A DNA stretch of 64,000 nucleotides, taken from a virus. The position numbers and the translations under genes are program-made. Positions 1 to 58,290 of the stretch are shown here, piece by piece (the stretch's first letter is position 1; each line of letters opens with the position of its first letter). A model generated the notes under the pieces. It did no database searches and had not been told where the DNA came from. It saw nothing but the letters and a program-made list of their open reading frames with translations. Location of the stretch: IMG/VR virus record IMGVR_UViG_3300044470_000095, positions 1-64,000 of that record. The stretch is one strand, 5' to 3'.

Positions 1-101
1 TCTCATTTCGATTCTCCCGGTGGTTTGTGCTGCCGATGTGAGACAGTATTATTCATTACGGAGGCCGCGTCAACTTCTTTTTGCAAATATATTAAAAATA
101 C

Positions 102-130
102 TTGACATGCTTGCGACGCACATATAGGAT
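102..130 (+). promoter_or_regulatory. Sigma-70-like promoter for Cro-like gene at 153
   Basis: TTGACA at 102-107 and TAGGAT at 125-130 are separated by 17 bp, about 22 bp before the start codon. On the opposite strand an ATG at 6-4, preceded by GGGAG (complement of 15-19), looks like the start of a leftward gene outside the window. That would make 7-152 a divergent repressor/cro-type control region, but I see no clear operator repeat in it. Confidence 0.6.
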
Positions 131-152
131 GTAATGAAACGGAGGAAATACC

Positions 153-335
153 ATGACCATGCAAGAATTAATCGACTTTTACGGCAGTGAAATTAAAGTG
201 GCTGCTGCCATTGGCATGTCGCATCAAACGATAAAAAATTGGGCGCATAGCCAGGCGATACCCAGAACGGCACAGTTAGCGATTCAGACTATCTCGAAAG
301 GCAAGCTCAAAGCCGACGAGGAATGCTTTAAATGA
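153..335 (+). CDS. Cro/YdaS-like small helix-turn-helix regulator
   Basis: A 60-residue protein whose core (residues about 13-45) reads as a helix-turn-helix: an AAAIGMSHQTIKNW recognition region followed by an AIPRTAQLAIQTISKGK tail, typical of phage Cro or YdaS-type repressors. GGAGGAA lies just before the ATG. The gene is followed with an ATGA overlap by a small zinc-ribbon gene, the same order as the 8458/8691 pair. The two Cro-like proteins are only distantly similar, so this is probably a second immunity module rather than a recent duplicate. Family assignment is by motif only. Confidence 0.75.
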   Translation: MTMQELIDFYGSEIKVAAAIGMSHQTIKNWAHSQAIPRTAQLAIQTISKGKLKADEECFK

Positions 336-364
336 CCTGCATGCACTGTCAAAACCCGCAAGGG

Positions 365-372
365 AAAATTTA
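365..372. repeat. Left copy of 8-bp target-site duplication
   Basis: AAAATTTA directly abuts the left end of the IS (GGCATTTATCCC at 373) and is repeated identically at 2436-2443. Eight base pairs is the usual duplication length of the IS1595 family. Confidence 0.93.
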
Positions 373-415
373 GGCATTTATCCCCTCATGACAAGTAATG
401 ATGGAGGAGCAAGAA

Positions 416-1498
416 ATGTTAAATAATACGATTGAACTGCCGCGTATATCAAATAATCGCGGAACAAAATATACTTTCATCGGTTATCCGTACAACCTTT
501 TGAAAGCCTGCCAAATGCCGCGCATACACGATGTTTTCCTTGATTGTGTTGTTTATCTATATAGAACAAAAGATGATGCAGAGGATGGCGAGAGGGCCGG
601 TGGAAGTGGATTTGTGGTCGCAATTCCGTTCAAGTCTGATATAAAAAGTGGTATGGGGGTGCATTTTGTGGTCACCAATAGACACGTTATAAAAGAAGCT
701 CCCGTTGTTAGATTAAATACTAAAGACGGTAATGTGTCAGTTATAGACCTAAAAGAAGAACAGTGGATAGCGCATCCAGATGGTGATGATATAGCAGTTT
801 GTGCTATTAATTTAGATAGGGGTACACATAAATTTGCGGCGGTATCGCCATCAAATTTCATCACAAAAGAACTAATTGATAAGGAGGATATCGGGATTGG
901 AGACGATATATTTGTCGTTGGAAGATTTATCAATCACGAAGGAATTCAGAAAAATTCTCCTAGCGTAAGATTTGGAAGCATTGCGCAAATGCCTGGGGAT
1001 AAAATAAGGCAGAACACAGGATTTGAGCAAGAAAGTTTTCTTATCGAAGCGAAGTCAATTGGAGGATATAGCGGAGCGCCAGTTTTCCTTCATATTTTAC
1101 CTTTTTCCTCTCGACCAGAAAAATATGAGCCAAGCAAATTAAAAGTTTCCAGTTTTAGAGGGCCTTGGTTATTGGGCATTGATTGGGGTCACTTAACAAG
1201 CATAGATGAAGTTGTTGATTTTTCTGGGGATAGAATTGGCGCGCACGGAAATTTTGTTAAATCAAATACCGGAATGATGTGCGTAGTGCCAGCATGGAAA
1301 TTATCTGAGTTATTTGAATCAGTGGAAGTGACAGAATTCATGGATAACGTAGAGCAAAAATGGATAAAAGATAAAGCGTGGGCACCGGGACAAACTGATT
1401 CTAAAAATCATTCTATAGATCTATCGCCTTTGGAAAACCCGGATCATCGAGAAGACTTTAACAATCTTCTCGACGCGGCAGTCAAAGGGAAGCAATAA
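416..1498 (+). CDS. Trypsin-like serine peptidase (IS passenger)
   Basis: Residues fit a chymotrypsin-fold catalytic triad. Counting from an upstream ATG at 398, His96 lies in VTNRHV, Asp131 in HPDGDDIAV and Ser225 in GGYSGAPVF, with a GGSGFVV strand before the histidine. No signal peptide is visible, so the enzyme is probably cytoplasmic. I prefer ATG 416 because GGAGGAG lies 7 bp upstream. The ATG at 398 would add six residues. The gene is AT-rich compared with its phage neighbours, consistent with arrival on the IS. Related peptidases act in stress or defence systems, but no partner gene is present and the substrate is unknown. Confidence 0.85.
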   Translation: MLNNTIELPRISNNRGTKYTFIGYPYNLLKACQMPRIHDVFLDCVVYLYRTKDDAEDGERAGGSGFVVAIPFKSDIKSGMGVHFVVTNRHVIKEAPVVRLNTKDGNVSVIDLKEEQWIAHPDGDDIAVCAINLDRGTHKFAAVSPSNFITKELIDKEDIGIGDDIFVVGRFINHEGIQKNSPSVRFGSIAQMPGDKIRQNTGFEQESFLIEAKSIGGYSGAPVFLHILPFSSRPEKYEPSKLKVSSFRGPWLLGIDWGHLTSIDEVVDFSGDRIGAHGNFVKSNTGMMCVVPAWKLSELFESVEVTEFMDNVEQKWIKDKAWAPGQTDSKNHSIDLSPLENPDHREDFNNLLDAAVKGKQ

Positions 1499-2369
1499 GC
1501 TGCTTGAACATTCCGGCAGGATCATGGCGGTTGTTATAGCGAAAGCTGAATTCGTTGACGTACTTTTGAAGATGTTGTGGAGATACGTGAATGTGAGTGC
1601 TGGTGATGCCGCATTTCAAGTGCTTCCAGAAACCCTCTGTACCGTTGATGTGGTGGATGCCATTTACGTATTGTTCGATGCCGTGCTGAACGGTTCCGTG
1701 TTTGTAGCCAAGGCGCGGAAGCTGTTTATAGCTGACCATTTCATCGGTGCTGATCGTAGCCCCTTTGGTAACGGTGGCTTGAATGATTGGCTCTAGGGTT
1801 TTGCGTGTTGTGTCGGTAACGACTTGGCAATTGATGTTTCCGTTGCGTTCAAGCGCACCGAATACAATAGACTTGGTTTTTGCGGAGCCAGCACCTTGAG
1901 TGCCTTTTGTGCGTTTGTTGGCGTGCTTATTCTTCTCTTTGCCGCCGACATAAGTTTCATCAAGTTCAACATGGCCGGACATTGGGGGATTGGTATCGTT
2001 CTTTCCGCCCATGAGTTTGCGAAGTTCATGGCCGATACGCCATGCAGTTTTATAGGTTACGCCAAGTTGCCGTTCAAGTTCTTTTGCAGATACGCCATTG
2101 CGAGTTGCAGTCATGAGGTACATAGCATGAAACCACAGAGTCAAAGCAGTTGTGGACTTCTCAAATGGGGTTCCAGCGCACGGATAGGCATGATGTCCGC
2201 ACCATTGGCAAGCGTAGGCGCGACGGCCTGTAATGCGGTGGAATTTTGTATCGACTACACCACAGCCTGGGCAAGTCGGCTTATTGCCAAACTTACGCGC
2301 CATGATCGCGTCAAGGCAAGCATCGTCCGTTGGGTATTCGGTTTGGAACTGTTTGAACGTGTATTTCAT
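1482..2369 (-). CDS. IS1595 family (ISXO2-like) transposase
   Basis: A 295-residue DDE-type transposase. An N-terminal zinc ribbon (CPGC... CQWCG, residues about 33-58) is followed by a helix-turn-helix (VSAKELERQLGVTYKTAWR). The ISXO2 catalytic core has LDETYVGGKE, STDEMVSYK and a GTEGFWKHLK segment. The length and domain order are usual for the family and there is no frameshift, so the enzyme should be active. It faces the passenger protease tail to tail. Confidence 0.95.
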   Translation of the reverse strand: MKYTFKQFQTEYPTDDACLDAIMARKFGNKPTCPGCGVVDTKFHRITGRRAYACQWCGHHAYPCAGTPFEKSTTALTLWFHAMYLMTATRNGVSAKELERQLGVTYKTAWRIGHELRKLMGGKNDTNPPMSGHVELDETYVGGKEKNKHANKRTKGTQGAGSAKTKSIVFGALERNGNINCQVVTDTTRKTLEPIIQATVTKGATISTDEMVSYKQLPRLGYKHGTVQHGIEQYVNGIHHINGTEGFWKHLKCGITSTHIHVSPQHLQKYVNEFSFRYNNRHDPAGMFKQLIASL

Positions 2370-2435
2370 GATTTATCCCCTCTACTTGCTTTGAAGTATA
2401 GGGGATAGACTACTTGCTGTCAAGGGATAAATGCC

Positions 2436-2443
2436 AAAATTTA
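2436..2443. repeat. Right copy of 8-bp target-site duplication
   Basis: AAAATTTA, identical to 365-372, immediately follows the right inverted repeat of the IS. Confidence 0.93.
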
Positions 2444-2554
2444 TCGATATCGGCTGCCGATTGACCAGGCTGGAATTTGTGAATCTTGCGTGCAGAAAAA
2501 GGCGCGTGAACTCGATGAATATTTGAGTGAGCGCGGTGCTGACTGGGAGATGAA

Positions 2555-2743
2555 ATGAACGAATCCGATTATATTTTCAGTGCTGCTGACGGCGATTTTG
2601 CTGCGATGTTACATGCGCAGATAACCGAACAAAACCGCCTACGCGCCGCGTCTGTAGTTTCCGAGTTCAAGCTCCTGCCGCCAAAGTTGCAAACCGAAAC
2701 GCTGGCATATCTCAATCAATTCTGTCTGCGGGAGAAATCATGA
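2555..2743 (+). CDS. Small hypothetical phage protein
   Basis: 62 residues with no motif I recognise. The sequence is helix-rich and acidic at the start. The ATG overlaps the stop of the interrupted zinc-ribbon gene, and its own stop overlaps the next ATG at 2740. This shows a tightly coupled four-gene unit that the IS insertion now makes polar. Confidence 0.6.
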   Translation: MNESDYIFSAADGDFAAMLHAQITEQNRLRAASVVSEFKLLPPKLQTETLAYLNQFCLREKS

Positions 2744-3135
2744 TCTCAATCACTCAATCCGCAATAGACGACATCTGCCAAAACTATCAGCATGGCGTAC
2801 ACGGCCATACGCTCAAGCACTTTGCGCGCAAGTACAAAATGGCGACAGGAGCCGTCCGAAAAATATTGGCTGGGCATACAGTAGCGCATGAGCGCAATAT
2901 CAAGAAACATAAACCCCATGCGCCAGACACGACGCTGCAAATTATCGCCGACAATTCCGCCGTATTTGTCAAAACTCCAAGGCAATTTCGTATGCATTCA
3001 ATCCTCCTATTTTTCAGTTTTCGTGCTTCTCATCAATCTAGCCAATTGATACGCCGAATTTCGCGCCAAGATGCCGAGCCAGTTTTCTTGCAGGAAAATT
3101 ACGTGGTTTCATTTCTCTCTCCGTTAGTTAATTAA
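2740..3135 (+). CDS. Hypothetical helix-turn-helix-like protein
   Basis: The first 55 residues (HTLKHFARKYKMATGAVRKI) look like a short DNA-binding helix-turn-helix. After about residue 75 the composition becomes phenylalanine- and serine-rich and unlike a phage regulator. The original gene may have ended earlier or been fused to unrelated sequence at a mosaic joint. It converges with the minus-strand gene at 3128. Confidence 0.45.
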   Translation: MISITQSAIDDICQNYQHGVHGHTLKHFARKYKMATGAVRKILAGHTVAHERNIKKHKPHAPDTTLQIIADNSAVFVKTPRQFRMHSILLFFSFRASHQSSQLIRRISRQDAEPVFLQENYVVSFLSPLVN

Positions 3136-3316
3136 TCCCAACTCCAAACGCGCCTTCAACCACTGTTGAAAAGACATGCTCTTGTACGTCTTGCGCATCA
3201 CATATAGATGATATAGGTTTTTCGATTGCGGGTACATTTTTGTCTCCTTCTGGTTTCTTAAACCATTCTTGCCAATCGCCGTGGCATCGGCGCATTACTG
3301 TGTTTGCGGAAATCAT
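3128..3316 (-). CDS. Small protein with MISANT...HGDWQE motif
   Basis: 62 residues. The first 18 match the 26-residue protein at 63647-63727, sharing ISANT, MRR and HGDWQE. In both places the gene overlaps the stop codon of a hexapeptide-repeat protein. Function unknown. The conserved pairing suggests the two products work together. Confidence 0.6.
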   Translation of the reverse strand: MISANTVMRRCHGDWQEWFKKPEGDKNVPAIEKPISSICDAQDVQEHVFSTVVEGAFGVGIN

Positions 3317-4050
3317 GGTTCGATTTGATCCGGCATGTCAAACCAAAATGCAATCAGATTGCATATTCCGAGGTAATGTTTACCAATTTTTGATGATCCA
3401 TGTTTTTGATGAACGGCATCGCGGAATCTCAGAAGATCTCCTTGAAAACACCCGCGAGCTAATTCGATACCTGTTTTTGTTCGATACGCCGTCAATGTGC
3501 CGTTTTCACTTCCGACGCCTTGATAACATTGAATATCAAGCGATTTTTTGATTTCCGCAAAGCCGCACACAGTGGCATAGCCGCACACAGTGGCATAGCC
3601 GCACACAGTGGCAGAGTCGCGCACAATGGCAGAGTCGCGCACAATGGCAGAGCCGCACACAATGGCAGAGCCGCACACAGTGGCATAGTCGCACACAGTG
3701 GCAGAGTCGCACACAATGGCAGAGCCGCGCACAATGGCAGAGCCGCGCACAATGGCAGAGCCGCACACAATGGCATAGTCGCGCACAATGGCAGAGCCGC
3801 GCACAGTGGCAGAGTCGCGCACAATGGCAGAGCCGCGCACAATGGCAGAGCCGCGCACCCAGCATGTCCCAGTAGCCGAAAGATTTTTTTCGCTTTCAAT
3901 ATATCCACCAAGATCACCTGCTGCGACATATAAGCCAACCGCAACAAGAGCGCGAATGCGATACAGCTTTCTTCCAAGGAATTCCTTGGTGTCGTTTTCC
4001 AGTAATTCATATTTTGCGTTTGCCAATTTATTCTCCTTGTTTAATTTCAA
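3313..4050 (-). CDS. Hexapeptide-repeat (left-handed beta-helix-like) protein
   Basis: 245 residues. A conserved N-terminal part (residues 1-65) precedes about 17 six-residue repeats of the type G/D-S-A-I/T-V-R/C, encoded by an 18-bp minisatellite, and a C-terminal domain containing GIELARGCFQG. A six-residue period with a small aliphatic residue every sixth position suggests a parallel beta-helix. No acyltransferase catalytic histidine is evident. A related C-terminus (GVRIRAGCFFG) is encoded at 63724-64000. The repeat number is likely to vary between strains. Role unknown. Confidence 0.65.
   Translation of the reverse strand: MKLNKENKLANAKYELLENDTKEFLGRKLYRIRALVAVGLYVAAGDLGGYIESEKNLSATGTCWVRGSAIVRGSAIVRDSATVRGSAIVRDYAIVCGSAIVRGSAIVRGSAIVCDSATVCDYATVCGSAIVCGSAIVRDSAIVRDSATVCGYATVCGYATVCGFAEIKKSLDIQCYQGVGSENGTLTAYRTKTGIELARGCFQGDLLRFRDAVHQKHGSSKIGKHYLGICNLIAFWFDMPDQIEP
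3562..3849. repeat. 18-bp minisatellite, 16 full units
   Basis: Sixteen consecutive 18-bp units of the type GCCGCACACAGTGGCATA differ mainly at four positions: GCC/GTC, GCA/GCG, AGT/AAT and CATA/CAGA. They encode the hexapeptide repeats of the minus-strand gene. Several other frames stay open across the array only because the unit contains no stop codon. Confidence 0.95.
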
Positions 4051-4271
4051 CGATCCCGAAAATACTCAGCCTTCGCCCGCTTCTTCGCCTGATAGCAATC
4101 CTCATCCCACGAAATATGGTCAATATCGACGGGGCAATCTGGCCTTGAAACATATCCATAAACTAGCGCGGAACCTTGCGAGCGGTAATGCTCAAGCAAC
4201 GAATCCGCAGGGTTCGCGGTCGCGCTAGATACGCATTGCGAGCTGGCTACTATCTGCGGGGCGTTGTTCAT
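4047..4271 (-). CDS. Hypothetical protein upstream of hexapeptide gene
   Basis: 74 residues, with no recognised domain. The C-terminal half (DIDHISWDEDCYQAKKRAKA) looks like a short acidic then basic helix. I place the start at 4271, where the ATG overlaps the stop of the preceding small frame. ATG 4283 is also possible. The stop overlaps the ATG of the hexapeptide gene, so translation is coupled. Confidence 0.55.
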   Translation of the reverse strand: MNNAPQIVASSQCVSSATANPADSLLEHYRSQGSALVYGYVSRPDCPVDIDHISWDEDCYQAKKRAKAEYFRDR

Positions 4272-4351
4272 GCAAGTCCGCATCGCCGCCGATGGTGCAG
4301 CCGGTCGGCAGCGGGTGCGTTATCGATAATCATTTGTGCAATTGTTTTCAT
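4268..4351 (-). CDS. Very small coupled ORF (27 aa)
   Basis: Starts MKTIAQMIIDNAPAADR. The ATG overlaps the stop of the truncated recT and its TGA overlaps the next start, so it fills the gap in a chain of overlapping genes. The C-terminal end is arginine-rich. It may be a genuine small gene or debris left by the deletion that truncated recT. Confidence 0.35.
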   Translation of the reverse strand: MKTIAQMIIDNAPAADRLHHRRRCGLA

Positions 4352-4575
4352 TTTTCACTCTCCAAGATTGCGGCGATGACAACAGACGAGAAAATGCTGT
4401 GCATGTCGCACTTTTGAAGTGCTGCGCTTTGACTGAATGAAGTCATCGCCAGCCGAACCATGCGGTCGGCGCTGATGTGCTTTGGCAGGGCGAGTGCAAT
4501 CTGCCCCTTGTACTTGTCCATGAAATCGCTCAGCGTCTTTGCCGGGCTTACTGCAACAGATGTTCTGTCATTCAT
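4348..4575 (-). pseudogene. recT: Truncated RecT-family annealing protein (N-terminal fragment)
   Basis: 75 residues match the start of E. coli RecT-type proteins: IALALPKHISADRMVRLAMT corresponds to AAALPRHMTAERMIRIATT, followed by ALQKCDMHSIFSSVV. The frame stops just before the region that would read LGLEPG. The DNA-binding core is therefore missing and the product cannot be a working annealase. GGAG precedes the ATG. An intact Bet-type annealase lies at 60320, so this is probably the remnant of an older recombination module. Confidence 0.8.
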
Positions 4576-4587
4576 TTAAAGCTCCAC

Positions 4588-4722
4588 TTAGTTGAAACAA
4601 CCCGCCACACAGACAAGCAAAAACGTCAGCGCAACGGTAAGGTTTTGATGCCGGTCGAACCAGTCTTGATGCCCGGCGCGACGCTTGAGTAGGCGCGCCT
4701 GGGCGCGATAAAGAGAGGTCAT
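4588..4722 (-). CDS. Small single-span membrane protein (44 aa)
   Basis: Starts MTSLYRAQARLLKRRAGHQD, then a hydrophobic segment LTVALTFLLVCVAGC ends near the C-terminus. A basic N-terminus followed by one membrane span suggests an inner-membrane protein with its N-terminus inside. It lies between the lectin-like variable gene and the recT fragment on the same strand. Function unknown. Confidence 0.5.
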   Translation of the reverse strand: MTSLYRAQARLLKRRAGHQDWFDRHQNLTVALTFLLVCVAGCFN

Positions 4723-4748
4723 GTTTTTTCTTCCATTCTTTTGCGAGC

Positions 4749-4777
4749 GGTCACGGCTGACGCCGCGACCCGTGACC
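4749..4777 (-). other. Hairpin downstream of the variable repeat
   Basis: GGTCACGG at 4749-4756 and CCGTGACC at 4770-4777 form a perfect 8-bp stem about 14 bp after the stop codon of the lectin-like gene. Known diversity-generating retroelements carry a hairpin or cruciform at this place, next to the 3' end of the variable repeat. There is no T-run, so it is not a typical terminator. Confidence 0.65.
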
Positions 4778-4790
4778 TGGGATCAGAGGC

Positions 4791-5687
4791 CTATGGCTTG
4801 GTGCTGCGAAAGCCGACGTTGCGGCCGCCGCCGACGGGCCAACCGCCGTCGAGACTGAAGACGCCCGCGACGCCCCCCGAGTACCAGCAGCCGCCCCGGA
4901 TGAGCGCACGGCCCGACCAATCGCAAGGCAACGACGGCAACCAGCCGATGCCTTGTTCCCGAGTGAACTGCGCGGCAAAGGTCAGGTAAGGAGAGTCAGC
5001 AGGAATCTTTCCCGTCAGGCCATTGGCGTCGCCGTGAATGTCGTCGAACATCCAACTGAAAATGTGCCCGCTGTAATCGCGGATGCTGCTACCGTCTGGC
5101 AGCAGAAAATAGCGATTTTCGTCAGCGTGAGGCGAGACATAGGTGCCGGGCTGCGCACCTGATACGGTGCCGCGATGCAGACCGCGCCGAAGGATGCCTT
5201 CGCCGACCTTGCCGCCGCTCCAGTTCGCATCGACGGACATGATGTCCATCCCGATGGCAATGTGCTGACTACCGCGAATCAAGCCGCCGCCGGCCAGCTT
5301 GCAAGCTTCCACTGATTTGTAGTAATTGATGTTGACGCGCGGCTTCTCGGTTTCCGAAACGTAGGCTTTGCCATCGGCATCGACGCAGCCCATGAGCTGC
5401 GCGACGCTGAACGGCGCGACTTCGATGCTGTAATTGCCGATCTTGATCGTGCGGCCAGGAATGTGAACGTAGCCAGGTTCCACGGTAGGTGCGAGCAGTT
5501 CATCGATCAGCGATTCGGAGCCGTCGACGATCAGGCCAACTTTTGGCATCACGATCAGGAACAATCCGGTTTCTGGCTGCACAAGCTTGATCTGGCCATT
5601 CCACTCGCTCTCTTTTTCAAGGCCAGCAAGCGTGCGGCCGGAAATCTCGGCGGTGTACGTGGTGCGCTTTGTCAGTTCGATGTACAT
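4791..5687 (-). CDS. C-type-lectin-fold variable protein (DGR target-like)
   Basis: 298 residues. The second half has the pattern of FGE-sulfatase/C-type-lectin-fold proteins (GGLIRGSQHIAIG, HGDANGLTG, QGIGWLPSLPCDWSGRALIRGG). It ends in GGCWYSGG, AGVFSL and RNVGFRSTKP, the usual ending of retroelement-diversified receptors. The last 40 residues are glycine/tryptophan/serine/aspartate-rich and sit where the variable repeat should be, followed by a hairpin. No reverse transcriptase, Avd or template repeat is visible in this window. It lies downstream of a repressor-controlled promoter, not among tail genes, so a tail-fibre role is not assured. It probably binds a ligand through the variable face. 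Confidence 0.8.
   Translation of the reverse strand: MYIELTKRTTYTAEISGRTLAGLEKESEWNGQIKLVQPETGLFLIVMPKVGLIVDGSESLIDELLAPTVEPGYVHIPGRTIKIGNYSIEVAPFSVAQLMGCVDADGKAYVSETEKPRVNINYYKSVEACKLAGGGLIRGSQHIAIGMDIMSVDANWSGGKVGEGILRRGLHRGTVSGAQPGTYVSPHADENRYFLLPDGSSIRDYSGHIFSWMFDDIHGDANGLTGKIPADSPYLTFAAQFTREQGIGWLPSLPCDWSGRALIRGGCWYSGGVAGVFSLDGGWPVGGGRNVGFRSTKP
4797..4919 (-). other. Candidate variable repeat (VR) of a diversity-generating retroelement
   Basis: This stretch codes for residues about 257-297 of the lectin-like protein. In the roughly 80 coding-strand bases of its core only about five are adenine. Most codons end in C with mixed first and second bases (GGC, TGC, TAC, GTC, GAC, CGC), the pattern left when template AAC codons are mutagenised at adenines. 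The invariant end codes for VGFRS. Confidence 0.6.
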
Positions 5688-5699
5688 GCTCTCTTCTGT

Positions 5700-6136
5700 A
5701 TGACTTCGTTGAATTAGTGCCGGTTACGTTTTCTCCGGCGCTCCCACAAAGGAGCCGTGCGCCATGTTTATCGGTCATCGAATGCATTACGCTTTGCAGA
5801 CCTCTTTACTGCCGCAATTCAGTGCAACCTCTGGTTGCCGTCAAGCCGTTCTATGGTCTACTGACTCCAGGCTTTCTCATGCCGCCAATTACCGCATCAC
5901 CACTCCCGCCGGCATACTCGTGCAGCCTTGCGCCGGAAACGCCATACACTTGCGTGTGCTGCAACGTATAATTCTTGCCGGTTACGTCTCCGGCGCGGAC
6001 TTTCACCGCCGTCTTGTAGCCTTGTGCCCGATAGGGGCTTTTTTGGTCTTCGACCGGCTTTCCTTCGACCGTCTACCTATCGTGTCCAGCATTAGCGCGG
6101 GGATTAGCTGGCGAATCTCATATTTACGCGCGATTC
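5700..6136. other. Region without an intact gene
   Basis: No convincing complete frame on either strand. On the minus strand a 60-codon piece (YRAQGYKTAVKVRAGDVTGK ... GGMRKPG) has protein-like composition but is closed by a TAG just upstream and downstream. A second piece begins VREIRTKRESVGIARKYEIR. Two segments, around 5720-5745 and 5971-5995, share GCGCCGGAG and ACGTAACCGGCA. The region may be the decayed end of the gene at 6638. The 192-codon plus frame here looks like a shadow. Confidence 0.4.
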
Positions 6137-6638
6137 CTACGCTTTCGCGTTTCGTCCGAATTTCACGGACTCATCAGGAAATCTTGCCGTCACGACCTCG
6201 GCTACGTGCTCCCTCAGGACTTCCGCTTTCGCGGGTTGCAAGAGTCTTTCGAAAACTGCTTGCGGGTAAAACTCAGTCTCCAGTCCAAACCGGCCTAAAA
6301 TCGCGGCGCGGCTTTTGCAGATCGACCGTGATCGGGTCGTAATCGACAAACGGAACCCGCAGTCCGGCAGCGCGCAACGCCTCCGGCGAGTCGTGCCGAA
6401 CTTCTTCCACCTGGCTGTTCACATGCATTTCTTCCCAAGCCGTCTGCACGCCGTCGAGATAAACCGGAACGAGCTTGGTCTTGAAACCGAACTTGACGGC
6501 GTTGGCGTTGCGAATGATCGGAAAACCAGTGCCGCACAGTGCTTCGATCATGCGTAAAACAGAGTTCCCCGCGTTCGCGCCGATAGTCTTTTGATCGCCG
6601 TTACCGAGGGCTACTTGCGGGGTCGTCGTTGTTTGCAT
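6137..6638 (-). pseudogene. Frameshifted hypothetical gene at head of leftward operon
   Basis: The first frame (6638-6273) encodes 121 residues (MQTTTTPQVALGNGDQKT ... DPITVDLQKPRRDF) and ends abruptly. A second frame takes over near 6300 with equally protein-like sequence (FGLETEFYPQAVFERLLQPAK ... DESVKFGRNAKA), ending at 6137. One missing or extra base around 6290-6305 would join them. I do not recognise the family. It is the first gene after the repressor-controlled promoter at 6672-6699. Confidence 0.5.
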
Positions 6639-6671
6639 GATCTGACTGGCGGTTGGTGGGTCGATGAACGT

Positions 6672-6711
6672 ATAATAGCACTGCTATTTTGCATGTCAAT
6701 AGCAAAGCTAG
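6672..6711 (-). promoter_or_regulatory. Leftward promoter with two repressor operators
   Basis: On the minus strand TTGACA (complement of 6694-6699) and TATTAT (6672-6677) are 16 bp apart. ATAGCACTGCTAT at 6675-6687 overlaps the -10 and ATAGCAAAGCTAG at 6699-6711 abuts the -35, with centres 24 bp apart. The cro promoter at 8424-8451 has the same spacer length and operator placement, so both are probably bound by the same repressor. Confidence 0.75.
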
Positions 6712-6840
6712 TAAATAATTCGAAAAAGAGTAAAATATTCCCCAACCGCCGAAAAGCGGCGAAAAAATACCGGCGCAGGCCGGTGGATGTAGGTAGTTGA
6801 TGTATCAGGTAGGCGAGGCGGCGCGAACCGCCCCGCGTTC

Positions 6841-6936
6841 CTAGGAAGTCATCAAGCCGATGAGAACTTGCAGGAGTGCTGCAAGCGCCCAAAGGTTGAT
6901 TTCCACCTGTATTGCTTTGGTTTTCAGCTTAAACAT
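6841..6936 (-). CDS. Possible 31-aa membrane peptide
   Basis: MFKLKTKAIQVEINLWALAA followed by a hydrophobic LLQVLIGLM end: one amphipathic or membrane-spanning helix. No strong ribosome site. Between this frame and 7203 I see no gene, only a CTCCCCG/CGGGGAG hairpin at 7106-7128 without a T-run. Confidence 0.3.
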   Translation of the reverse strand: MFKLKTKAIQVEINLWALAALLQVLIGLMTS

Positions 6937-7202
6937 GAATGTCTCACGAGTAAGCAGTCGCACCAGGCCTGAGCGACCACTATGGAAATGGTGGCCGTTC
7001 TTTTCAGCGGTTACGAAGTGGTCTGGCCTCACGGTCAGTTTTCTTTACCGCCTTGTAGCAGCACTACGCTACCCCTCGATGTGCGCACAAAGAGGGCGGA
7101 TTACTCCCCGTCGCAGTGGCGGGGAGTTCCGAATTCAATTATTGAACGCTTGTTGGGCAGACTTCGTAGCTGTTGATGGCGACGATAACGCCATTGTTAG
7201 GG

Positions 7203-7466
7203 CTATTTTCGAGTTGCGTACCATCCTCTTGCGTTCATGCAACTTGCAAACATGCTATTACGATTGCCGGCATTCGCATCATATGTGACTTGGTATTTTC
7301 TACCTTGCGCTGTCGCTAGGTTCTCCTGATATGCGCTTGCCGAATCCTGCATGCAGGCGTACTTATCTTGCGCAAACTCCCCTTGCGTGCCGCCGTCCTT
7401 GTGATAGATGGTTTGGCACCCAGCTAATCCCGTTGAAAATAAAATCGGAAGCAATATTTTTTTCAT
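7203..7466 (-). CDS. Small outer-membrane-type lipoprotein
   Basis: 87 residues beginning MKKILLPILFSTGLAGCQ, a signal peptide with lipobox LAGC, so the mature protein should be lipidated. The body is polar with three further cysteines (KYACMQ, ASCMNARGW). It lies downstream of the repressor and the Rap1a-like gene on the same strand and could be made in the lysogen. A surface change or exclusion role is possible but unproven. Confidence 0.65.
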   Translation of the reverse strand: MKKILLPILFSTGLAGCQTIYHKDGGTQGEFAQDKYACMQDSASAYQENLATAQGRKYQVTYDANAGNRNSMFASCMNARGWYATRK

Positions 7467-7502
7467 ATTTCCCTTAGTTCGGCATTCGGCGTGCCGTTGC
7501 GC

Positions 7503-7865
7503 CTATTTCGATACCTTGCATGGAAAGGCTGCGTAAAGAGACCTTGCGACTAGTATTTCTGCTGAGAAGTTCCATTGATCTGGATGAGCTACAAGATAAT
7601 TTTTAGTAATTGCAATAAGTTGGCCTGGCGTGACATTTTGCGGCGCGCAAATAGAAACGCCGTCAAGCGTGTCATAAACCCCGGTTATATAGCCAAGCAA
7701 TTGAAATTCGAATTGATAGTCTTCCTGCGAAAGTGCGCGATTTTCCTTCACTCTATTGTCGGCCTCAATCCATTGATGAAGTTCGCTGCCAGTGTGAAAA
7801 GCGCCAGTTCCGGCCCCATGTGCGGAAAATGAAATAAAAGCAATGAGTGAAATTATTTTCTTCAT
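7503..7865 (-). CDS. Rap1a/Tai-like exported protein
   Basis: 120 residues with a cleavable signal peptide (MKKIISLIAFISFSAHG). Residues 25-118 resemble the Rap1a/Tai domain: TGSELHQW, LLGYITGVYDTLDGVSIC, TPGQLIAITKNYLVAHPDQW and a final LYAAFPCK. Known members are periplasmic immunity proteins of type VI amidase effectors, but many phage and chromosomal copies have no proven role. It sits between the repressor and a lipoprotein, a usual place for genes expressed during lysogeny. Confidence 0.65.
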   Translation of the reverse strand: MKKIISLIAFISFSAHGAGTGAFHTGSELHQWIEADNRVKENRALSQEDYQFEFQLLGYITGVYDTLDGVSICAPQNVTPGQLIAITKNYLVAHPDQWNFSAEILVARSLYAAFPCKVSK

Positions 7866-7876: not shown

Positions 7877-8380
7877 TTATTTCTCGGTAATTTTCGATTT
7901 TCCCGGCTTCTTTCCGCCAAATGGATTAGAGACGGATACGTTGCCAGGTTTTGAATCTGTCAGCATGTTGTTGGCACTATGCTCAAGCTCGTGCTGCTGT
8001 TCCTGGGATAATTGGCGATACATCATAATCAGAGCTGCCTCTGGGCCGGTCAGATTTGTAAAGTTCATAACCAATTGACTTGGCGGCGTGGCGGCGGATG
8101 ACGCTGCGTACTCAACAGCCATTTCAGCTAAAGTCGGACTGAAATCTCCAATCCTCACATTAAGCCCATCGGCAAATGCCTTTGCGGCCTTCAAGTTCAG
8201 TGATCGCTTGGCATTCAAATACTGCCAAACCATTCCTTGTGTTCCTATTTCAAACTGCAAACCAAAAGCACCCTGCGATAAATCTTGTTTTTCAAATAAC
8301 GCTTTCAAGCGATTGGCATCCTCAACCTGCCAATCGTCCAATTTTGCTTTATTCGCTTTTGCTGGTTCTTTTTTCATCAT
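7877..8380 (-). CDS. CI-like phage repressor (HTH, no peptidase domain)
   Basis: 167 residues. A helix-turn-helix (DLSQGAFGLQFEIGTQGMVW, then LNAKRSLNLKAAKAFADGL) occupies residues about 25-75. The rest is a short helical region with no S24 Ser/Lys dyad, so self-cleavage is unlikely. The gene is divergent from the Cro-like gene at 8458, with operators in the 77-bp gap. It probably holds both the cro promoter and the 6.68-kb promoter shut. Confidence 0.8.
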   Translation of the reverse strand: MMKKEPAKANKAKLDDWQVEDANRLKALFEKQDLSQGAFGLQFEIGTQGMVWQYLNAKRSLNLKAAKAFADGLNVRIGDFSPTLAEMAVEYAASSAATPPSQLVMNFTNLTGPEAALIMMYRQLSQEQQHELEHSANNMLTDSKPGNVSVSNPFGGKKPGKSKITEK

Positions 8381-9517: not shown

Positions 9518-9891
9518 CGATTCGCATACCTCCCGCAAGGTGCGTCAATCAGCATCGCGTTGGCCGCTTCATATTCGAGCGCGGCCCGAAGTCGAAAGCG
9601 TCGATCTTGCAATTCATGCGCCGACACTGCGCCGATTTTTCCGTGCATGAGGTCGTCAAGAAAATGATTGGTCTTGGCTTGATCGAAGAATTTGGCGGAT
9701 TGCTTTATATCTGCGAAGAACTCAAGACGCACTATACCGACATCGACGCCGCCCGCTCCGCGCAGCAAGCGGTAATCACGCCGCCGCGCACGTTTGTTCG
9801 ATCTGGAACGCTTGACTGCAAGGCTCTGTATGCCGGCGCGCTGGGGCGCATTGGCACGTTGCGGTCGCCATTGAATATGGGAAACCCATGA
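9514..9891 (+). CDS. Hypothetical early protein (winged-helix-like)
   Basis: 125 residues from the ATG that overlaps the previous stop (MTIRIPPARCVNQH). KASILQFMRRH...DFSVHEVVKKMIGLGLIEEFGG reads as a DNA-binding winged helix in residues about 25-70. A longer open frame from 9355 exists but would overlap the upstream gene fully. It lies next to the helicase/methylase gene. Confidence 0.6.
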   Translation: MTIRIPPARCVNQHRVGRFIFERGPKSKASILQFMRRHCADFSVHEVVKKMIGLGLIEEFGGLLYICEELKTHYTDIDAARSAQQAVITPPRTFVRSGTLDCKALYAGALGRIGTLRSPLNMGNP

Positions 9892-12491
9892 CTGACGCAT
9901 ACCACGAATTTTTGCGCGGCAAGATCAAACTGGCGCAGCGCAAGGGTTTTGACGTTCCTCTTGACGAAATAAATTCCGGTCTGAAGCCTCACACTCGGGA
10001 CATTGTCCGGTGGGCACTTGCCGGCGGCCAGCGCGCAATCTTCGCTTCGTTTGGCCTGCACAAGACGGCAACGCAACTCGAAATTATGAGGCTCATTGGC
10101 GCGCATTACGATGGTCTGCGCGGCATCGTTTTGCCGCTTGGGGTGCGCCAAGAGTTCATGCGCGAGGTTGTAAAACGCTTTACCGGAGAATATGCCGTCG
10201 ACCTTCGCTTTATTCGCTCCGATGCCGAGATCGGCGACGACCGCACTATCTACATGACGAATTACGAATCGGTGCGCGAAGGCAAGATCGATATTTCAAA
10301 ATTTCGCGCAACAACACTTGATGAGGCGAGCGTTTTACGCAGTTACGGTAGCAAGACCTATCAGGAGTTCTTGCCCGCGTTCGAGCCGGTCGAGTTCAAA
10401 TTCGTTGCTACCGCAACGCCAAGCCCCAACCGCTTTAAAGAACTGATCCATTACGCCGGCTACCTGGGTGTCATGGATACGGGGCAAGCGCTTACACGAT
10501 TCTTCCAGCGCGACAGCGAGAAGGCTGGAAATCTCACGCTCTACCCGCACAAAGAAGCTGAATTCTGGATGTGGGTTGCGAGCTGGGCGGTTTTCATTCA
10601 GCGACCAAGCGATCTTGGCTATTCCGACGAAGGCTACGAACTTCCGCCGCTCGACGTCCGCTATCACGAGGTGCCGAGCAATTACGCTGCCGCCGGCGCC
10701 GAAAAGAACGGTCAAGGCCTGTTGATACCGAATGTCGCAATGAGTTTGTCATCCGCCGCCGGCGAGAAACGCCACAGCATGGATGCGCGGGTCGCCAAGG
10801 TTGCGGAAATCATGGCCGAGTCGCCAGACGATCATTTCGTGATCTGGCACGATTTGGAAGACGAGCGCCACGCGATTCAACGGGAAATTTCCAGTGTGGT
10901 CAGTGTTTGGGGTACGCAGGAACTCGAAGAGAGAGAGCAGCGCATTGCGGATTTCAGCGACGGCAAGATCAAGGATTTATCGACCAAGCCCATCATCGCC
11001 GGGTCGGGGTGCAATTTCCAAGTGCATTGCCACCGCGAGATATTCGCTGGCATCGGCTTCAAATTCAACGACTTCATTCAGGCGATCCACCGTGTTCAGC
11101 GCTTCCAGCAAGCGCACCCGGTACGGATCGACATCGTTCACACCGAGGTCGAGCGCAAGGTGTTGGCTGACCTGCAGGCGAAATGGCGACAACACGATGA
11201 GATGCAGGTCAAGATGTCCGAAATCATCCGCACCTACGGCCTGGACCAGCTGCAGATGCAAGACACGCTGGCGCGCACCATCGGCGTCGAGCGCGCCGAG
11301 GTTCGCGGAAAATACTTCACGGTTGCCAACAACGATTGCGTGCTGGAAGCGCGGACGAAGGAAGCGAACTCGGTCGGCTTGATCGTGACATCAGTTCCTT
11401 TCGCGAACCATTATGAGTATACGCCGAGCTACAACGACTTCGGCCACACCCAGGATAACAATCATTTCTGGTCGCAGATGGATTTCCTGACTCCTGAGCT
11501 TTACCGGATACTGCAACCTGGTCGAATCTACGCCTGCCACGTCAAGGACCGGATCAATTTCGGCAACGTGACCGGATTCGGCTTGCCGACCAGCAGTCCG
11601 TTCCACTGCGAAGCGACCATGCACGGTATCAAGCACGGTTTCGACTATCTCGGCGTCATCACCGTTGTAACGGACGTGGTGCGCGAGAACAATCAAACCT
11701 ACCGCCTCGGATACTCGGAAGTCTGCAAGGACGGCACGAAGATGAGCGTCGGCTCGCCGGAATACATTATTCTTTTTCACAAGCCGCAGTCGGATCGATC
11801 GCGCGGCTATGCCGACGTGCCAGTCAGTAAGGAAAAGCCTCTATGTATGGACGATGACGGCGTTATAGGTCCATTTGATAGAAGAGCGGCGCCTGTTGCT
11901 GGGACCGGCTACAGCGTCGCGCGCTGGCAGATTGATGCGCATGCATTCTGGCGCTCAAGCGGCAACCGGCTGTTGACGGCTGAAGAGTTGGCGGCCTACG
12001 GAACGGCGAAACTGGCCAAGATGTTCACCGAGATGTCGCTGAACAACGTCTACGACTACGAATACCATGTGCGCGTCGGCGAAGCGCTGCTGGCCAAGAA
12101 GTCGCTGCCCGCCGATTACATGAGCCTGGCGCCCGGCAGCAACGATCCGGTGGTGTGGCACGACATCGTGCGCATGCGGACATTGAATGGCGAGCAGTCG
12201 GCGCGCGCGGTCGAGAAACACGTATGTCCGTTCCAGATCGATATCGTCGACCGCCTCATCACACGCTACAGCAACCCAGGTGATTTGGTCTACGATCCGT
12301 TCGCCGGATTGGGTACAGTGCCAGTACGTGCGCTGAAGCTGGGGCGTCGTGGTGCCGGCTCCGAATTGAGTTCCGCCTACTTTGCCGACCAGGTGCATTA
12401 CCTGCAGGCGATGGAGCGCGAAATCAGCATGCCGACACTTTTTGATTTCGAGCAAATGGAAGCGTTGGAAGCGATGGAGGCCGTAGCGTGA
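9888..12491 (+). CDS. SNF2-like helicase fused to beta-class DNA methyltransferase
   Basis: 867 residues. The N-terminal half is a superfamily-2 helicase-like domain with a divergent Walker A (FGLHKT, about residue 55-60), a LDEAS motif near 144, and a C-terminal helicase part ending in AIHRVQRFQQ. The second half is an amino-methyltransferase with catalytic motif IV as TSVPF (residue about 501) and AdoMet motif I as DPFAGLGT (about 803). The IV-before-I order is that of beta-class N4-cytosine/N6-adenine enzymes. The second proline of the usual S/DPPY is retained and the first replaced. It probably modifies phage DNA to evade restriction. Target sequence unknown. Confidence 0.85.
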   Translation: MTDAYHEFLRGKIKLAQRKGFDVPLDEINSGLKPHTRDIVRWALAGGQRAIFASFGLHKTATQLEIMRLIGAHYDGLRGIVLPLGVRQEFMREVVKRFTGEYAVDLRFIRSDAEIGDDRTIYMTNYESVREGKIDISKFRATTLDEASVLRSYGSKTYQEFLPAFEPVEFKFVATATPSPNRFKELIHYAGYLGVMDTGQALTRFFQRDSEKAGNLTLYPHKEAEFWMWVASWAVFIQRPSDLGYSDEGYELPPLDVRYHEVPSNYAAAGAEKNGQGLLIPNVAMSLSSAAGEKRHSMDARVAKVAEIMAESPDDHFVIWHDLEDERHAIQREISSVVSVWGTQELEEREQRIADFSDGKIKDLSTKPIIAGSGCNFQVHCHREIFAGIGFKFNDFIQAIHRVQRFQQAHPVRIDIVHTEVERKVLADLQAKWRQHDEMQVKMSEIIRTYGLDQLQMQDTLARTIGVERAEVRGKYFTVANNDCVLEARTKEANSVGLIVTSVPFANHYEYTPSYNDFGHTQDNNHFWSQMDFLTPELYRILQPGRIYACHVKDRINFGNVTGFGLPTSSPFHCEATMHGIKHGFDYLGVITVVTDVVRENNQTYRLGYSEVCKDGTKMSVGSPEYIILFHKPQSDRSRGYADVPVSKEKPLCMDDDGVIGPFDRRAAPVAGTGYSVARWQIDAHAFWRSSGNRLLTAEELAAYGTAKLAKMFTEMSLNNVYDYEYHVRVGEALLAKKSLPADYMSLAPGSNDPVVWHDIVRMRTLNGEQSARAVEKHVCPFQIDIVDRLITRYSNPGDLVYDPFAGLGTVPVRALKLGRRGAGSELSSAYFADQVHYLQAMEREISMPTLFDFEQMEALEAMEAVA

Positions 12492-33147: not shown

Positions 33148-33242
33148 ATTTGCGGAGAGGATAGGCTAGATCGGTCGACAAGCGAGTTCCCTGCTCGTTT
33201 CCTCTCCCATCATTTTCAGGGTGTTTAATTAGGGATTAAATC

Positions 33243-53768: not shown

Positions 53769-53873
53769 TGCGCCGGGTAGCGCATTGGTGGCGCGCATGG
53801 CGCTGTCGTCGAAAGACGGTCGCCATTGCTCTGCCTACTGCTTTCCACATCCACATTTCAAAGTGAGGAAACC

Positions 53874-54110
53874 ATGTTCTGGAATTACATCGCCTACGGT
53901 TTTTTGATTCTCGTCTACGCGGCATTCGCCTGGGTCGGGAAGGCTCCGGTCGGGGGGTTGATCGCCGTCATTACCGGCGCACTGGCTGCGCTCGGAGCCA
54001 ATCATGCAATCACGTCTGCGGCGAATCGCGCAACCGACGCGGCCAATATCGCAAATCCTGTGCCGCCGCAGAATGTCGCGGCAGCACCAACAACCGTCAC
54101 AAAGGGATAG
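53874..54110 (+). CDS. Holin-like protein
   Basis: 78 residues from ATG 53874 (GTGAGGAAACC upstream). Two hydrophobic segments (YIAYGFLILVYAAFAWVG and VGGLIAVITGALAALGANHA) and a polar tail. Size, topology and the neighbouring endolysin fit a holin that opens the inner membrane. No family motif. Confidence 0.65.
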   Translation: MFWNYIAYGFLILVYAAFAWVGKAPVGGLIAVITGALAALGANHAITSAANRATDAANIANPVPPQNVAAAPTTVTKG

Positions 54111-54112
54111 CC

Positions 54113-54391
54113 ATGAAATATCACCACACAGTCTATCTGCCAGCACTGGCAATCATTCTTGCTCTTGCCTGGCTGCTGTCTGGCTGCGCAAGCATGTGCG
54201 ATCCGAACGACGTTCAATGCAAGCAGGACGCCGTGAGTGACGCTGCTGACGTTGGCGCGGGCATCGGTGCGGCTCTTGATGTCATGTCGATTCTTGATGC
54301 GCCTAACGAGCCGACGCGCACCGAAACGCGCACATGCACTACTGATTTTTGGGGCAATCAAAATTGCACCGTAACCGTCGAAAGACACTAA
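54113..54391 (+). CDS. Small lipoprotein of the lysis module
   Basis: 92 residues. Signal peptide with LLSGC lipobox (ILALAWLLSGCASM). The mature part has several cysteines (MCDPNDVQCKQD, CTTDFWGNQNC). An outer-membrane lysis accessory (o-spanin-like) is possible, but no inner-membrane spanin partner is seen. Confidence 0.55.
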   Translation: MKYHHTVYLPALAIILALAWLLSGCASMCDPNDVQCKQDAVSDAADVGAGIGAALDVMSILDAPNEPTRTETRTCTTDFWGNQNCTVTVERH

Positions 54392-54400
54392 GGGGATACC

Positions 54401-54781
54401 ATGAACAAACGTAACTTGATTATCAGCGCCGCCATTGCCGGACTGCTTGCCGTATCGCTCACCGGCTGCGGAACCGTCAACGCGTGGAACGCAACTGCAC
54501 TCACCACCGGCATGTCGGACTATGCCGGGGCAAAAAAGAACACGCAAGAGCTTGACGATATCAAGCTTCGCGGTTGGCTGGACGGTTCGTGCGCGATTAA
54601 CATAGGGGCGTTGCAACGGATTTCCAGCACGTCGGGAAGCCCGAATGCAGTTAATGCTGTATTCATGGCCTGCCCGGTCCCCAATGTCGGGGTGACGACG
54701 ATCCTGCCGAGTGGAAACATGTCGGTGCAGACTACCGCGATTCAGCCAGCCGCCGCCATTCCTGCCGTACCCGCAAAATGA
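54401..54781 (+). CDS. Lipoprotein of the lysis module
   Basis: 126 residues. Signal AAIAGLLAVSLTGCGTVNAW with LTGC lipobox. It ends in a Pro/Ala-rich stretch. AGGGGA precedes the ATG. Overlaps the lipase-like gene start. Function unknown. Confidence 0.55.
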   Translation: MNKRNLIISAAIAGLLAVSLTGCGTVNAWNATALTTGMSDYAGAKKNTQELDDIKLRGWLDGSCAINIGALQRISSTSGSPNAVNAVFMACPVPNVGVTTILPSGNMSVQTTAIQPAAAIPAVPAK

Positions 54782-55431
54782 TTTCACGTCAATACGCCGC
54801 GTGGCTGGCATTAATCAAGATTTACGATGATGGTAGCCGCGCCAATTATTTCGATCATATTTTGAATATCGGTGACGATATCGTCGGCATCAAGACCATC
54901 GCAGATACCTTCACAATCACACCGGAAGGGACATACGACTGGCAAGGCTGGGAAGATGATGCCAATTTCATTCCTATCAACCATTCAGTATGGGGTGGCG
55001 TCCACGGCGAGTTTCTGGAAGCAGCGCAAGCTATCTATGCGGTCGTCAAGCCGCTTGCGCTTGCTTCAGGTAAGGACATAGCCATTCAAGGTCACTCGCG
55101 TGCTGGGAGCCTCGCTGACGCGCTGGCATCGCTGTTTGCGCTCGACGGCCACAAGACCACGCTGTCCATGTTTGAAGCGGCTCGATTCGGCTGGCAGAAA
55201 TACTCGGATTGGGCGCAGCGGCAGGTCAAGAACCGTGTCATCAACATCGTCACTTCAACGCGCAACGGGCCGGATTTTATCGTCGATTTGCCGCCGTTTC
55301 CGTGGGTAGCGACGTATCCGCAACTGGATTTGAAATATGCGCCGGGCGGTTTGAAAGACGCTATCCCGACCGAATGGCACATGTCGGACGCGGTATATCC
55401 TGGCTATCTCAAGTTGTTCCCGCAGACATGA
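54778..55431 (+). CDS. Lipase-like alpha/beta hydrolase
   Basis: 217 residues. The nucleophile elbow is IAIQGHSRAGSLADALASLF with Ser in GHSRAG, as in class 3 lipases (GHSLGG). A preceding NHSVWGGVHGEFLEAAQAIY and a following STRNGPDFIVDLPP (Asp) and EWHMSDAVY (His) could complete the triad. No signal peptide is visible. It may attack membrane lipid or lipopolysaccharide at lysis. Activity is inferred. Confidence 0.65.
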   Translation: MISRQYAAWLALIKIYDDGSRANYFDHILNIGDDIVGIKTIADTFTITPEGTYDWQGWEDDANFIPINHSVWGGVHGEFLEAAQAIYAVVKPLALASGKDIAIQGHSRAGSLADALASLFALDGHKTTLSMFEAARFGWQKYSDWAQRQVKNRVINIVTSTRNGPDFIVDLPPFPWVATYPQLDLKYAPGGLKDAIPTEWHMSDAVYPGYLKLFPQT

Positions 55432-55541
55432 TTTTATTCGCCTTGCTCTGGTATTTCCCTATGTTCGCCTTCGCCTACTTCCAGCCGAATAAACACTCCG
55501 ACAAAAAGACAGAACAGCGGCAAAGCGATGCACCAGATTAG
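55428..55541 (+). CDS. Small membrane protein (37 aa)
   Basis: MILFALLWYFPMFAFAYFQP followed by a charged tail: one membrane span. The ATG overlaps the lipase stop. It converges with the minus-strand gene by 4 bp. No terminator is evident between the two operons. Confidence 0.45.
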   Translation: MILFALLWYFPMFAFAYFQPNKHSDKKTEQRQSDAPD

Positions 55542-55933
55542 TAGGAATGTCGTGGCGCTGATTCATCCGGCGCGGTTTCTTCGCCAAATAAATCAGCGGT
55601 AAATTCGTCTTTTCCAGGCGGTATCGGTTGACCTGCAGGAATAAAAGCCGTGCAGCATGGTTGTCCATCTTTCCCATATTGCCATTCAATCGGATATTCC
55701 GGTTCGTCTACTCGGTATGCAAACGTGTTTCCGATAATCTTGCAAACCTCGTTATCATCGCACTCATCGAACTCAACTCCTTCGCGTATAGATTTATCTC
55801 TTGCGCATTCGCCGCACCAACTATTGATGAAAATCTCGCCTTCAGTGCCATTGGAAGGCTGATATTTTTTGCCGACGCATGACCCTTCTACAATCAATGT
55901 AGCAAAGTCTGGTGGATATATTTTATGCGGCAT
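55538..55933 (-). CDS. Hypothetical Cys-containing early protein
   Basis: 131 residues from MPHKIYPPDFATLIVEGSCV. SWCGECARDK, ECDDNEVC and CCTAFIPAG suggest metal or disulphide sites. Longer starts (55945, 56047) overlap the upstream gene. Last gene of the leftward early block. Function unknown. Confidence 0.55.
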   Translation of the reverse strand: MPHKIYPPDFATLIVEGSCVGKKYQPSNGTEGEIFINSWCGECARDKSIREGVEFDECDDNEVCKIIGNTFAYRVDEPEYPIEWQYGKDGQPCCTAFIPAGQPIPPGKDEFTADLFGEETAPDESAPRHSY

Positions 55934-56339
55934 GGCCTTCCCCATTCGGAGCGGTTGCTGCGAGCGCAGACTCACATGATTGTAGTGTTGTTGCGCATTC
56001 AATAAAATGGCCTCTCCGAGATTCCAAATATACGGCTGTGCTACCATCTTTCGTTTGCGCTACCAATGTAATAACTTTCATTGATCCGGCTAAAGCTTCG
56101 CGCAGCACTCGCACCTGTTCCTGCAACTTCGCAACTTGTGGATCGGGTGCGCGGTCATTCCATTGCTTGATAGCGTCCACGGTATTCACAGAGTGCCCGG
56201 CAGGCTTCGCGCTATCAGCCTTCGCAACCTCGAATTTAACCCCGCAGTTGCAGGCAATATTCATCCAGCGATGTGTGTCACCTTCGGAAAAGTAAATTTC
56301 CTTGCCCTTGCACATCGGGCATTCACGCAGTTTGCTCAT
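55923..56339 (-). CDS. Lar-like restriction alleviation family protein
   Basis: 138 residues from ATG 56339, which has AAGGAGGG upstream. LRECPMCKGKEIYFSEGD, NIACNCGVKFEVA and DAIKQWNDRAP match the CPxC...C.CG...AI..WN.R pattern of Lar-type zinc-ribbon proteins. A helical extension (KLQEQVRVLREALAGS) follows. Only the founding Rac Lar has shown restriction alleviation, so activity here is assumed from family. Confidence 0.7.
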   Translation of the reverse strand: MSKLRECPMCKGKEIYFSEGDTHRWMNIACNCGVKFEVAKADSAKPAGHSVNTVDAIKQWNDRAPDPQVAKLQEQVRVLREALAGSMKVITLVAQTKDGSTAVYLESRRGHFIECATTLQSCESALAATAPNGEGHAA

Positions 56340-56392
56340 TATTTCCCTCCTTCGCATGCGCTTGCAACAGGGTGCGCAGATTCAAACATGTA

Positions 56393-56788
56393 TCATGCGA
56401 TAGCTCCACCATTAAGAAGCCACCGCATTCTTTCAAGGCTTGGAATTTCTTCTGAGTTTGGGAATGGAATAATTTTTGACGCTTTCACGCTTACAGGCAT
56501 CCCATCCTTTCTAAATTTTACAACCCCAATTACTTCAACTCTTTTGTTGAAATTTCTATGTGCAATATCCAAATATTCAATTGGTATTTCACATGATACC
56601 GATCTATTATCAATCACATCATAAACAACAAATTTTGATCCATTATGGGTGGTTAAAATCTCAAGCCTACCCTCAACAGAACTTTCTGCCTCATGCGACG
56701 GGGATAATATATACCCAGTTGCCTCGATCTGTAGGATGTCACGCAGCATGCGAGCATCCTCCACATCCAGTACGAAATTAATGTCACT
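56393..56788 (-). CDS. Hypothetical early protein
   Basis: 131 residues from ATG 56788 (AAAGG upstream). MSDINFVLDVEDARMLRDIL, a beta-rich middle (SKFVVYDVIDNRSVSCEIPI, KRVEVIGVVKFRKDGMPVSV) and a C-terminal ERMRWLLNGG. Lower GC than its neighbours. No known family. Confidence 0.55.
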   Translation of the reverse strand, partial: SDINFVLDVEDARMLRDILQIEATGYILSPSHEAESSVEGRLEILTTHNGSKFVVYDVIDNRSVSCEIPIEYLDIAHRNFNKRVEVIGVVKFRKDGMPVSVKASKIIPFPNSEEIPSLERMRWLLNGGAIA

Positions 56789-57179
56789 CATGATTGCCTT
56801 TCTGCTGCGCCACGAGAGCGCGGATTTTTCCCAATACTTCAGCATAAATATGCCGCCGCCCTTCTAAGGGGATTGCCGATAACCCTTCATCCATTTCGAC
56901 AAACAGAGCGTTAATCGCAGCATCCCGTTCCGCATTCAACTTATCCGCCTCATGCTCGGCTGGTTGCTCGATAGGCGCGCGGTCGGGTGGTAATTTATCC
57001 AACAAACTCGCAATCGTCTTTTGCGAAGTCTCAATCATTGCGCACAGAGTATCAACCGCTGTTCTGAGTCCGGTAACGACATAATCATCGTCAATGCAGT
57101 CGGCACAATCTTTCATCATCTCGGCTTGGGTCTTCGGATTTTTTGTGCTTGCTCCACAGTTCATTGTGCAGTGTTTCAT
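56784..57179 (-). CDS. Hypothetical early protein
   Basis: 131 residues. N-terminal cysteines (MKHCTMNCG, CADCIDDDY) and a long helical part (RTAVDTLCAMIETSQKTIAS ... ERDAAINALFVEMDE). Good ribosome site AAGGAG. Similar helical early proteins occur in many phages. Function unknown. Confidence 0.55.
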   Translation of the reverse strand: MKHCTMNCGASTKNPKTQAEMMKDCADCIDDDYVVTGLRTAVDTLCAMIETSQKTIASLLDKLPPDRAPIEQPAEHEADKLNAERDAAINALFVEMDEGLSAIPLEGRRHIYAEVLGKIRALVAQQKGNHE

Positions 57180-58286: not shown

Positions 58287-58290
58287 TTTA

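Follow-up and report, generated by a model that had tools for sequence, protein, structure and literature searches.

The minus-strand gene at 4791-5687 is a true target of a diversity-generating retroelement (DGR), a system that deliberately mutates one short stretch of a protein, and it lies in a temperate phage in whose record no reverse transcriptase (RT), Avd or template repeat (TR) was found. The window analysed here comprises positions 1-64,000 of a virus record of 69,623 bp and has the gene content of a temperate phage: a terminase, a portal, head genes, the baseplate genes of a contractile tail and a tail fibre, together with lysis genes, RecE, RecT and a repressor. A preliminary description had read the gene as an orphan DGR target, and this reading is supported both by the pattern of its variable repeat (VR) against the TRs of its relatives and by the machinery missing from the phage record. 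The features used below are the following.

4348-4575, minus strand: 75-aa open reading frame (ORF), next downstream of the target, with a homologue behind a variable-protein (VP) gene in contig L040
4749-4777, minus strand: target hairpin past the VR, 9-bp stem (one G-T pair) with 4-nt loop GTCA at 4749-4770
4791-5687, minus strand: DGR variable-protein (target) gene, 298 aa, FGE-type C-type-lectin fold (from the ORF, family alignments A1/A2 and the predicted fold)
4800-4916, minus strand: VR of about 117 nt, corresponding to the part that TRs match in relatives
4800-4820, minus strand: 3' end of the VR, GTC GGC TTT CGC AGC ACC, past the last variable codon
6672-6712, minus strand: leftward promoter TTGACA-16-TATTAT (6699-6672), overlapped by two operator-like palindromes (6674, 6698)
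7877-8380, minus strand: phage repressor, CI-like (phrog_4 transcriptional repressor, E 2e-7)
53769-58575, minus strand: slot past RecE and a small gene, where the sister phage G024 has VP1-Avd-TR-RT

Variable repeat, hairpin and predicted fold

The start of the VR was set by where homology to the sister phage's TR begins; at the place of the window VR's 3' end, that TR ends in CGC AGA CCC, an IMH versus IMH*-like difference. Compared with the nearest foreign TR (from locus L100), the window VR is changed at 21 of 27 adenines versus 4 of 75 other sites (Fisher p ~9e-13, a descriptive value, the TR having been chosen as the best of 42), and the five next-best foreign TRs give p values from 4e-12 to 7e-10. 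A-to-G accounts for 17 of the 21 adenine-site changes (binomial p 0.04), a share reached by 6% of VRs from intact DGRs. The adenine-poor stretch of the preliminary description is real (8.1% A in 4797-4919 versus 20.0% over the whole gene), although it is among the poorest 123-nt windows rather than the poorest, 35 of 775 being lower. The NNC-type codons are likewise present: among 14 codon positions variable in relatives, 13 end in C or T, a count that is weak when taken by itself (p ~0.016 given the gene's own 63.5% NNY).

Four non-adenine mismatches separate the window VR from the foreign TR. Scored in the same way against foreign TRs, VRs of intact DGRs give a median of 3 (quartiles 2-5), and 49% of them score at least 4; judged by this comparison of sequences, the window VR appears free of excess decay, and the word 'fossil' offered in the preliminary description was too strong. 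The homologues on Massilia/Telluria chromosomes (n = 6, mutually similar, without an adjoining TR) have 21-26 such mismatches; they show what a long-domesticated state looks like, and the window VR is unlike them.

The perfect 8-bp hairpin described earlier exists as an inverted repeat (4749-4756 / 4770-4777) that begins 14 nt past the stop codon. It overlaps a second structure favoured by folding, a 9-bp stem (4749-4757 / 4762-4770) with one G-T pair and a GTCA loop, and this is the better DGR-type reading. When a hairpin is defined by 7 or more Watson-Crick pairs in the stem and a loop of 3-5 nt, one follows 102 of 126 relatives' VRs but is present in only 155 of 3000 random windows; among 4-nt loops GTNA predominates. 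Of 2.9 million viral contigs, 7 contain the 29-nt element GGTCACGGGTCGCGGCGTMAGCCGTGACC, in every case directly past such a VR. Efficient homing in the Bordetella phage BPP-1 needs a stem of 8 bp with a loop of 4 nt past the VR (PMC3240598).

These observations bear on the idea that the C-type-lectin gene was never a DGR target, or has not been one for very long, and owes its appearance to domestication or chance resemblance. Conserved copies on Massilia/Telluria chromosomes and copies on Janthinobacterium plasmids do exist, as such an account would have it, but the Massilia/Telluria copies have lost the pattern, whereas the window gene has few mismatches, the adenine-site bias and the hairpin; we consider this account extremely improbable.

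The 298-aa product has the C-type-lectin variable-protein ending that had been claimed for it (...RGGCWYSGGVAGVFSLDGGWPVGGGRNVGFRSTKP). A Pfam search of the protein gave no family, although relatives do reach FGE-sulfatase; tblastn against 50,697 phage records (E 1e-5) gave no match, and matches to YebT in a PDB sequence search were rejected as chance. An AlphaFold2 model built from a 40-sequence alignment of the window and locus proteins reached a pLDDT of 83 and a pTM of 0.75, with the VR region least certain. VIA-align of this predicted model placed TaqVP first (Z 16.5), followed by TvpA (14.5), formylglycine-generating enzyme (14.5) and Mtd (12.9), with sequence identities of 19% to TaqVP and 14% to TvpA. 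The target is thus predicted to have a C-type-lectin fold, a ligand-binding fold that tolerates variation. The fold alone would not distinguish DGR proteins from FGE enzymes; the VR does.

Early-operon setting, intact relatives and a sister phage

The target is the second ORF behind the leftward promoter, or the first if 6273-6638, an ORF with no relatives among viral contigs, is not a gene. The palindrome AATAGCAnnGCTATT or a near form occurs within the window only at 6674 and 6698, where it coincides with the target's leftward promoter, and at 8387 and 8435 in the repressor region. Because these sites are common to the two places, the repressor likely controls the target's promoter, in agreement with the preliminary description, and with the gene so close behind such a promoter its product is probably made early after induction or infection. 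The ORF at 4348-4575 has a homologue (84% over 73 aa) behind a VP gene of L040, a contig with an intact DGR, in which the order is target, this homologue, RecE, target and TR; the window therefore retains the first two genes of that arrangement. The earlier remark that the gene stands outside the tail module is correct, and the early operon can be added to it, but the placement is a frequent one among relatives: RecE/RecT homologues of the window's type occur in 20 of 57 relatives' loci of at least 12 kb, on the same strand as the target in all 20 and within 8 kb in 18.

Homologues of the target make up a family of beta-proteobacterial phages and prophages, represented by 21 genome loci, 78 viral loci and two Janthinobacterium plasmids; a single-sequence scan of genome contigs returned nothing, and an alignment query gave matches. 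A limited open-access literature search found no publication on this early-operon target family. TRs, sought as second copies of the VR bearing adenine at the differing sites, were present in most loci with enough flank, and 42 distinct TRs were recovered. Across 113 cognate VR-TR pairs, 62% of template adenines are changed with a mean of 0.24 non-adenine mismatches, and 1604 of 1651 changes fall at adenine sites in codon positions 1 and 2. The preliminary description had named a lack of adenine-site bias among relatives as part of what would refute it; the bias is overwhelming, and it is found in relatives that carry an RT and a TR. Most relatives' targets lie about 1 kb upstream of a TR and a DGR RT, and in 56 of 56 loci the TR is 925-2608 nt past the nearest VP gene. 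Searches for an RT in viral records that have the target gene were positive for 26 of 39 and 25 of 39, many of the others being short fragments; among genomes, 15 of 21 gave an RT.

Several relatives merit description in their own right. The 8.4-kb viral contig L001 has four tandem target genes at 2587-7516, each with a different VR; their differences toward the 3' end are mainly in codon positions 1 and 2. One VR of L040 (9374-9481) equals its TR (10444-10551) except at the IMH end and is apparently an unmutated, naive copy. The Massilia/Telluria chromosomal homologues (L015, L021-L025) are conserved across species, with no TR found and the DGR pattern lost, and are candidates for domesticated DGR proteins. 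Herminiimonas contaminans (L011, 10001-10882) has a DGR-like VR with 8 non-adenine mismatches and no RT found in its draft genome; it is likely a second orphan target.

The sister phage G024 (IMGVR_UViG_3300050120_000126, 66.4 kb; loci L028, L188 and L140) matches the window phage in capsid (75%), portal (68%) and further head genes common to both. It has an RT, a TR, an Avd-like protein (E 2e-4 against bAvd and 2e-6 against PHROG Avd) and three targets. Two of these lie in the leftward operon; the third is on the other strand, well away from the cassette (L271, 2580-3293). All three VRs follow the pattern of G024's own TR, and the third is a remote target inside one phage. In a tree computed without the VR, the window protein adjoins the first-position target of G024 (L028_9797) with support 93, but as one of two long branches, so the placement is only suggestive.

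Missing machinery and its explanation

No RT, Avd or TR, none of which the preliminary description had seen in 64 kb, was found in the whole record either. Over its 69,623 bp, PF00078 found no RT, tblastn with relatives' RTs gave no real match, and the sole TR-like site was the VR itself; the search of the rest of the genome for an adenine-bearing template with an RT, suggested in the preliminary description, thus came back empty for this record. PF22296 gave no Avd match at E up to 10, with a model of moderate sensitivity that scores the sister's Avd at E 2e-4, below cut-off. Since the TR stands 925-2608 nt past the VP gene in the relatives, that of the window would be expected inside the 4.8 kb present past the target gene. 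No RT or TR was found in those 4.8 kb or in the stretch past RecE, both inside the contig, and the slot at 53769-58575 holds only unrelated small genes.

Could the cassette be present in the phage and have been dropped by assembly, the record being a chimera or a fragment near its ends? Virus records may be fragments, and the two ends of this one share an exact 4379-bp repeat (window 1-4379 = record 64519-68897, L003), which suggests a circle of about 64.5 kb. The right-end copy is then followed by 507 bp of new sequence with a GDSL-like hydrolase and by a third copy of 1-131. The last 726 bp of the record therefore diverge into a different gene, a sign of a tangled assembly or a strain mixture, so closure and completeness are probable but not proven. 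The orphan argument is independent of closure, however, because the positions taken by TR and RT in relatives (at most 2.6 kb past the VP, or past RecE) are contiguous inside the contig, and we hold an assembly artefact to be improbable.

We probably see a DGR target whose cassette was lost or replaced by mosaic exchange and whose VR and hairpin were kept intact, a reading that brings together the VR pattern, the relatives' TRs, RTs and Avd proteins (the sister's included), the hairpin, the fold and a record in which no RT, TR or Avd was found. The VR at the gene's 3' end would have been written by mutagenic retrohoming from a TR of the type seen in relatives; Avd, TR and RT would then have been lost or replaced through mosaic exchange in a temperate, contractile-tailed phage, with the target gene, its VR and the 3' recognition hairpin retained. 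The loss would probably have been recent, a timing that draws on foreign TRs, as the cognate TR was never seen. The VR would now be frozen in cis, yet it would still be usable as a target given a matching DGR in the same cell. Within the same reading, the phage may instead have taken up a gene that was already diversified: among 48 records with a related capsid, the target gene occurs in one, G024, and besides G024 an RT occurs in only one, a lower-scoring match, so the target is patchy in this phage group, and to have acquired it by recombination in diversified form is no less possible than to have lost the cassette.

A minor possibility is that the target is still diversified in trans by the DGR of another prophage of the host, or of a co-infecting phage, with a matching TR. 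The intact and undecayed VR and hairpin would suit this, distant targets occur within the family (the third G024 VP lies on the other strand with the same VR pattern), and Thiohalocapsa PB-PSB1 provides documented cases of remote or trans targets (PMC10907252). However, of 195 Oxalobacteraceae genomes sampled, 2 had RTs of this clade, both of them known carriers, which makes a helper in the same host improbable a priori should the host belong to that family. Nor did any TR among 2.9 million viral contigs fit one strict VR-derived pattern, which accepts only adenine or the window's own base at selected sites and keeps all others constant, and so misses TRs with other constant sites. Likewise unlikely is a phage that keeps the target without a DGR of its own and has its early-operon lectin diversified in trans by the RTs of other co-resident phages.

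Other parts of the record were noted in passing. An IS1595-family transposase (1482-2369) lies within the leftward operon region and is a conceivable agent of cassette loss. Two short-repeat proteins are encoded on the minus strand near the record ends, a pentapeptide-repeat protein at 63724-64488 and, at 3313-4050, a gene with an array of 18-bp DNA repeats. Positions 9888-12491 encode an 867-aa protein that has an N6/N4 DNA methylase domain and, over one stretch, a weak resemblance to helicases. It has a counterpart of 84% identity (613 aa) in record G032; that record, too, carries a target gene, and no RT was found in it. An Rfam match to int-alpA RNA at 33154-33221, directly past the capsid gene, is in an unexpected location.

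Known DGR systems and meaning

The closest known arrangement is that of G024-type DGRs, which share with the window a homologous target in the leftward early operon, the VR register, the GFRST ending and head/packaging genes; they differ in having RT, Avd, TR and three targets, where the window phage has one target and no machinery. The BPP-1 system (mtd/Mtd) likewise has a C-type-lectin target, a 3' VR, a hairpin past the VR and A-to-N changes. Mtd is a tail-fibre receptor-binding protein, and RT, Avd and TR adjoin its gene. The window target, in contrast, is an early-operon gene without machinery, and its hairpin loop is GTCA, not the GRNA consensus. TaqVP of Thermus and TvpA of Treponema resemble the predicted model in their FGE-subtype C-type-lectin fold but have low sequence identity to it and belong to bacterial DGRs. 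The remote targets of Thiohalocapsa PB-PSB1 (PMC10907252) have a DGR-type VR that RT and TR do not adjoin, as here, but their helper TR lies elsewhere in the same bacterial genome, whereas the window target is carried by a phage and no helper was found for it. A large metagenome survey states that remote targets would escape it (PMC8144416).

DGRs, multi-target DGRs and trans targets are already known; what is new is an orphan target in a phage with an undecayed VR and hairpin and with intact sisters. It provides a well-supported phage DGR target apart from its machinery, and the intact relatives reveal the likeness of the missing template. Such a case lends itself to asking whether cross-phage (trans) mutagenesis lets DGR targets persist or whether they simply freeze once the cassette is lost. 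In this family a phage can have several targets, and these often lie next to RecE/RecT in the early operon and not in the tail module, which makes the ligands of such variable proteins a matter of interest.
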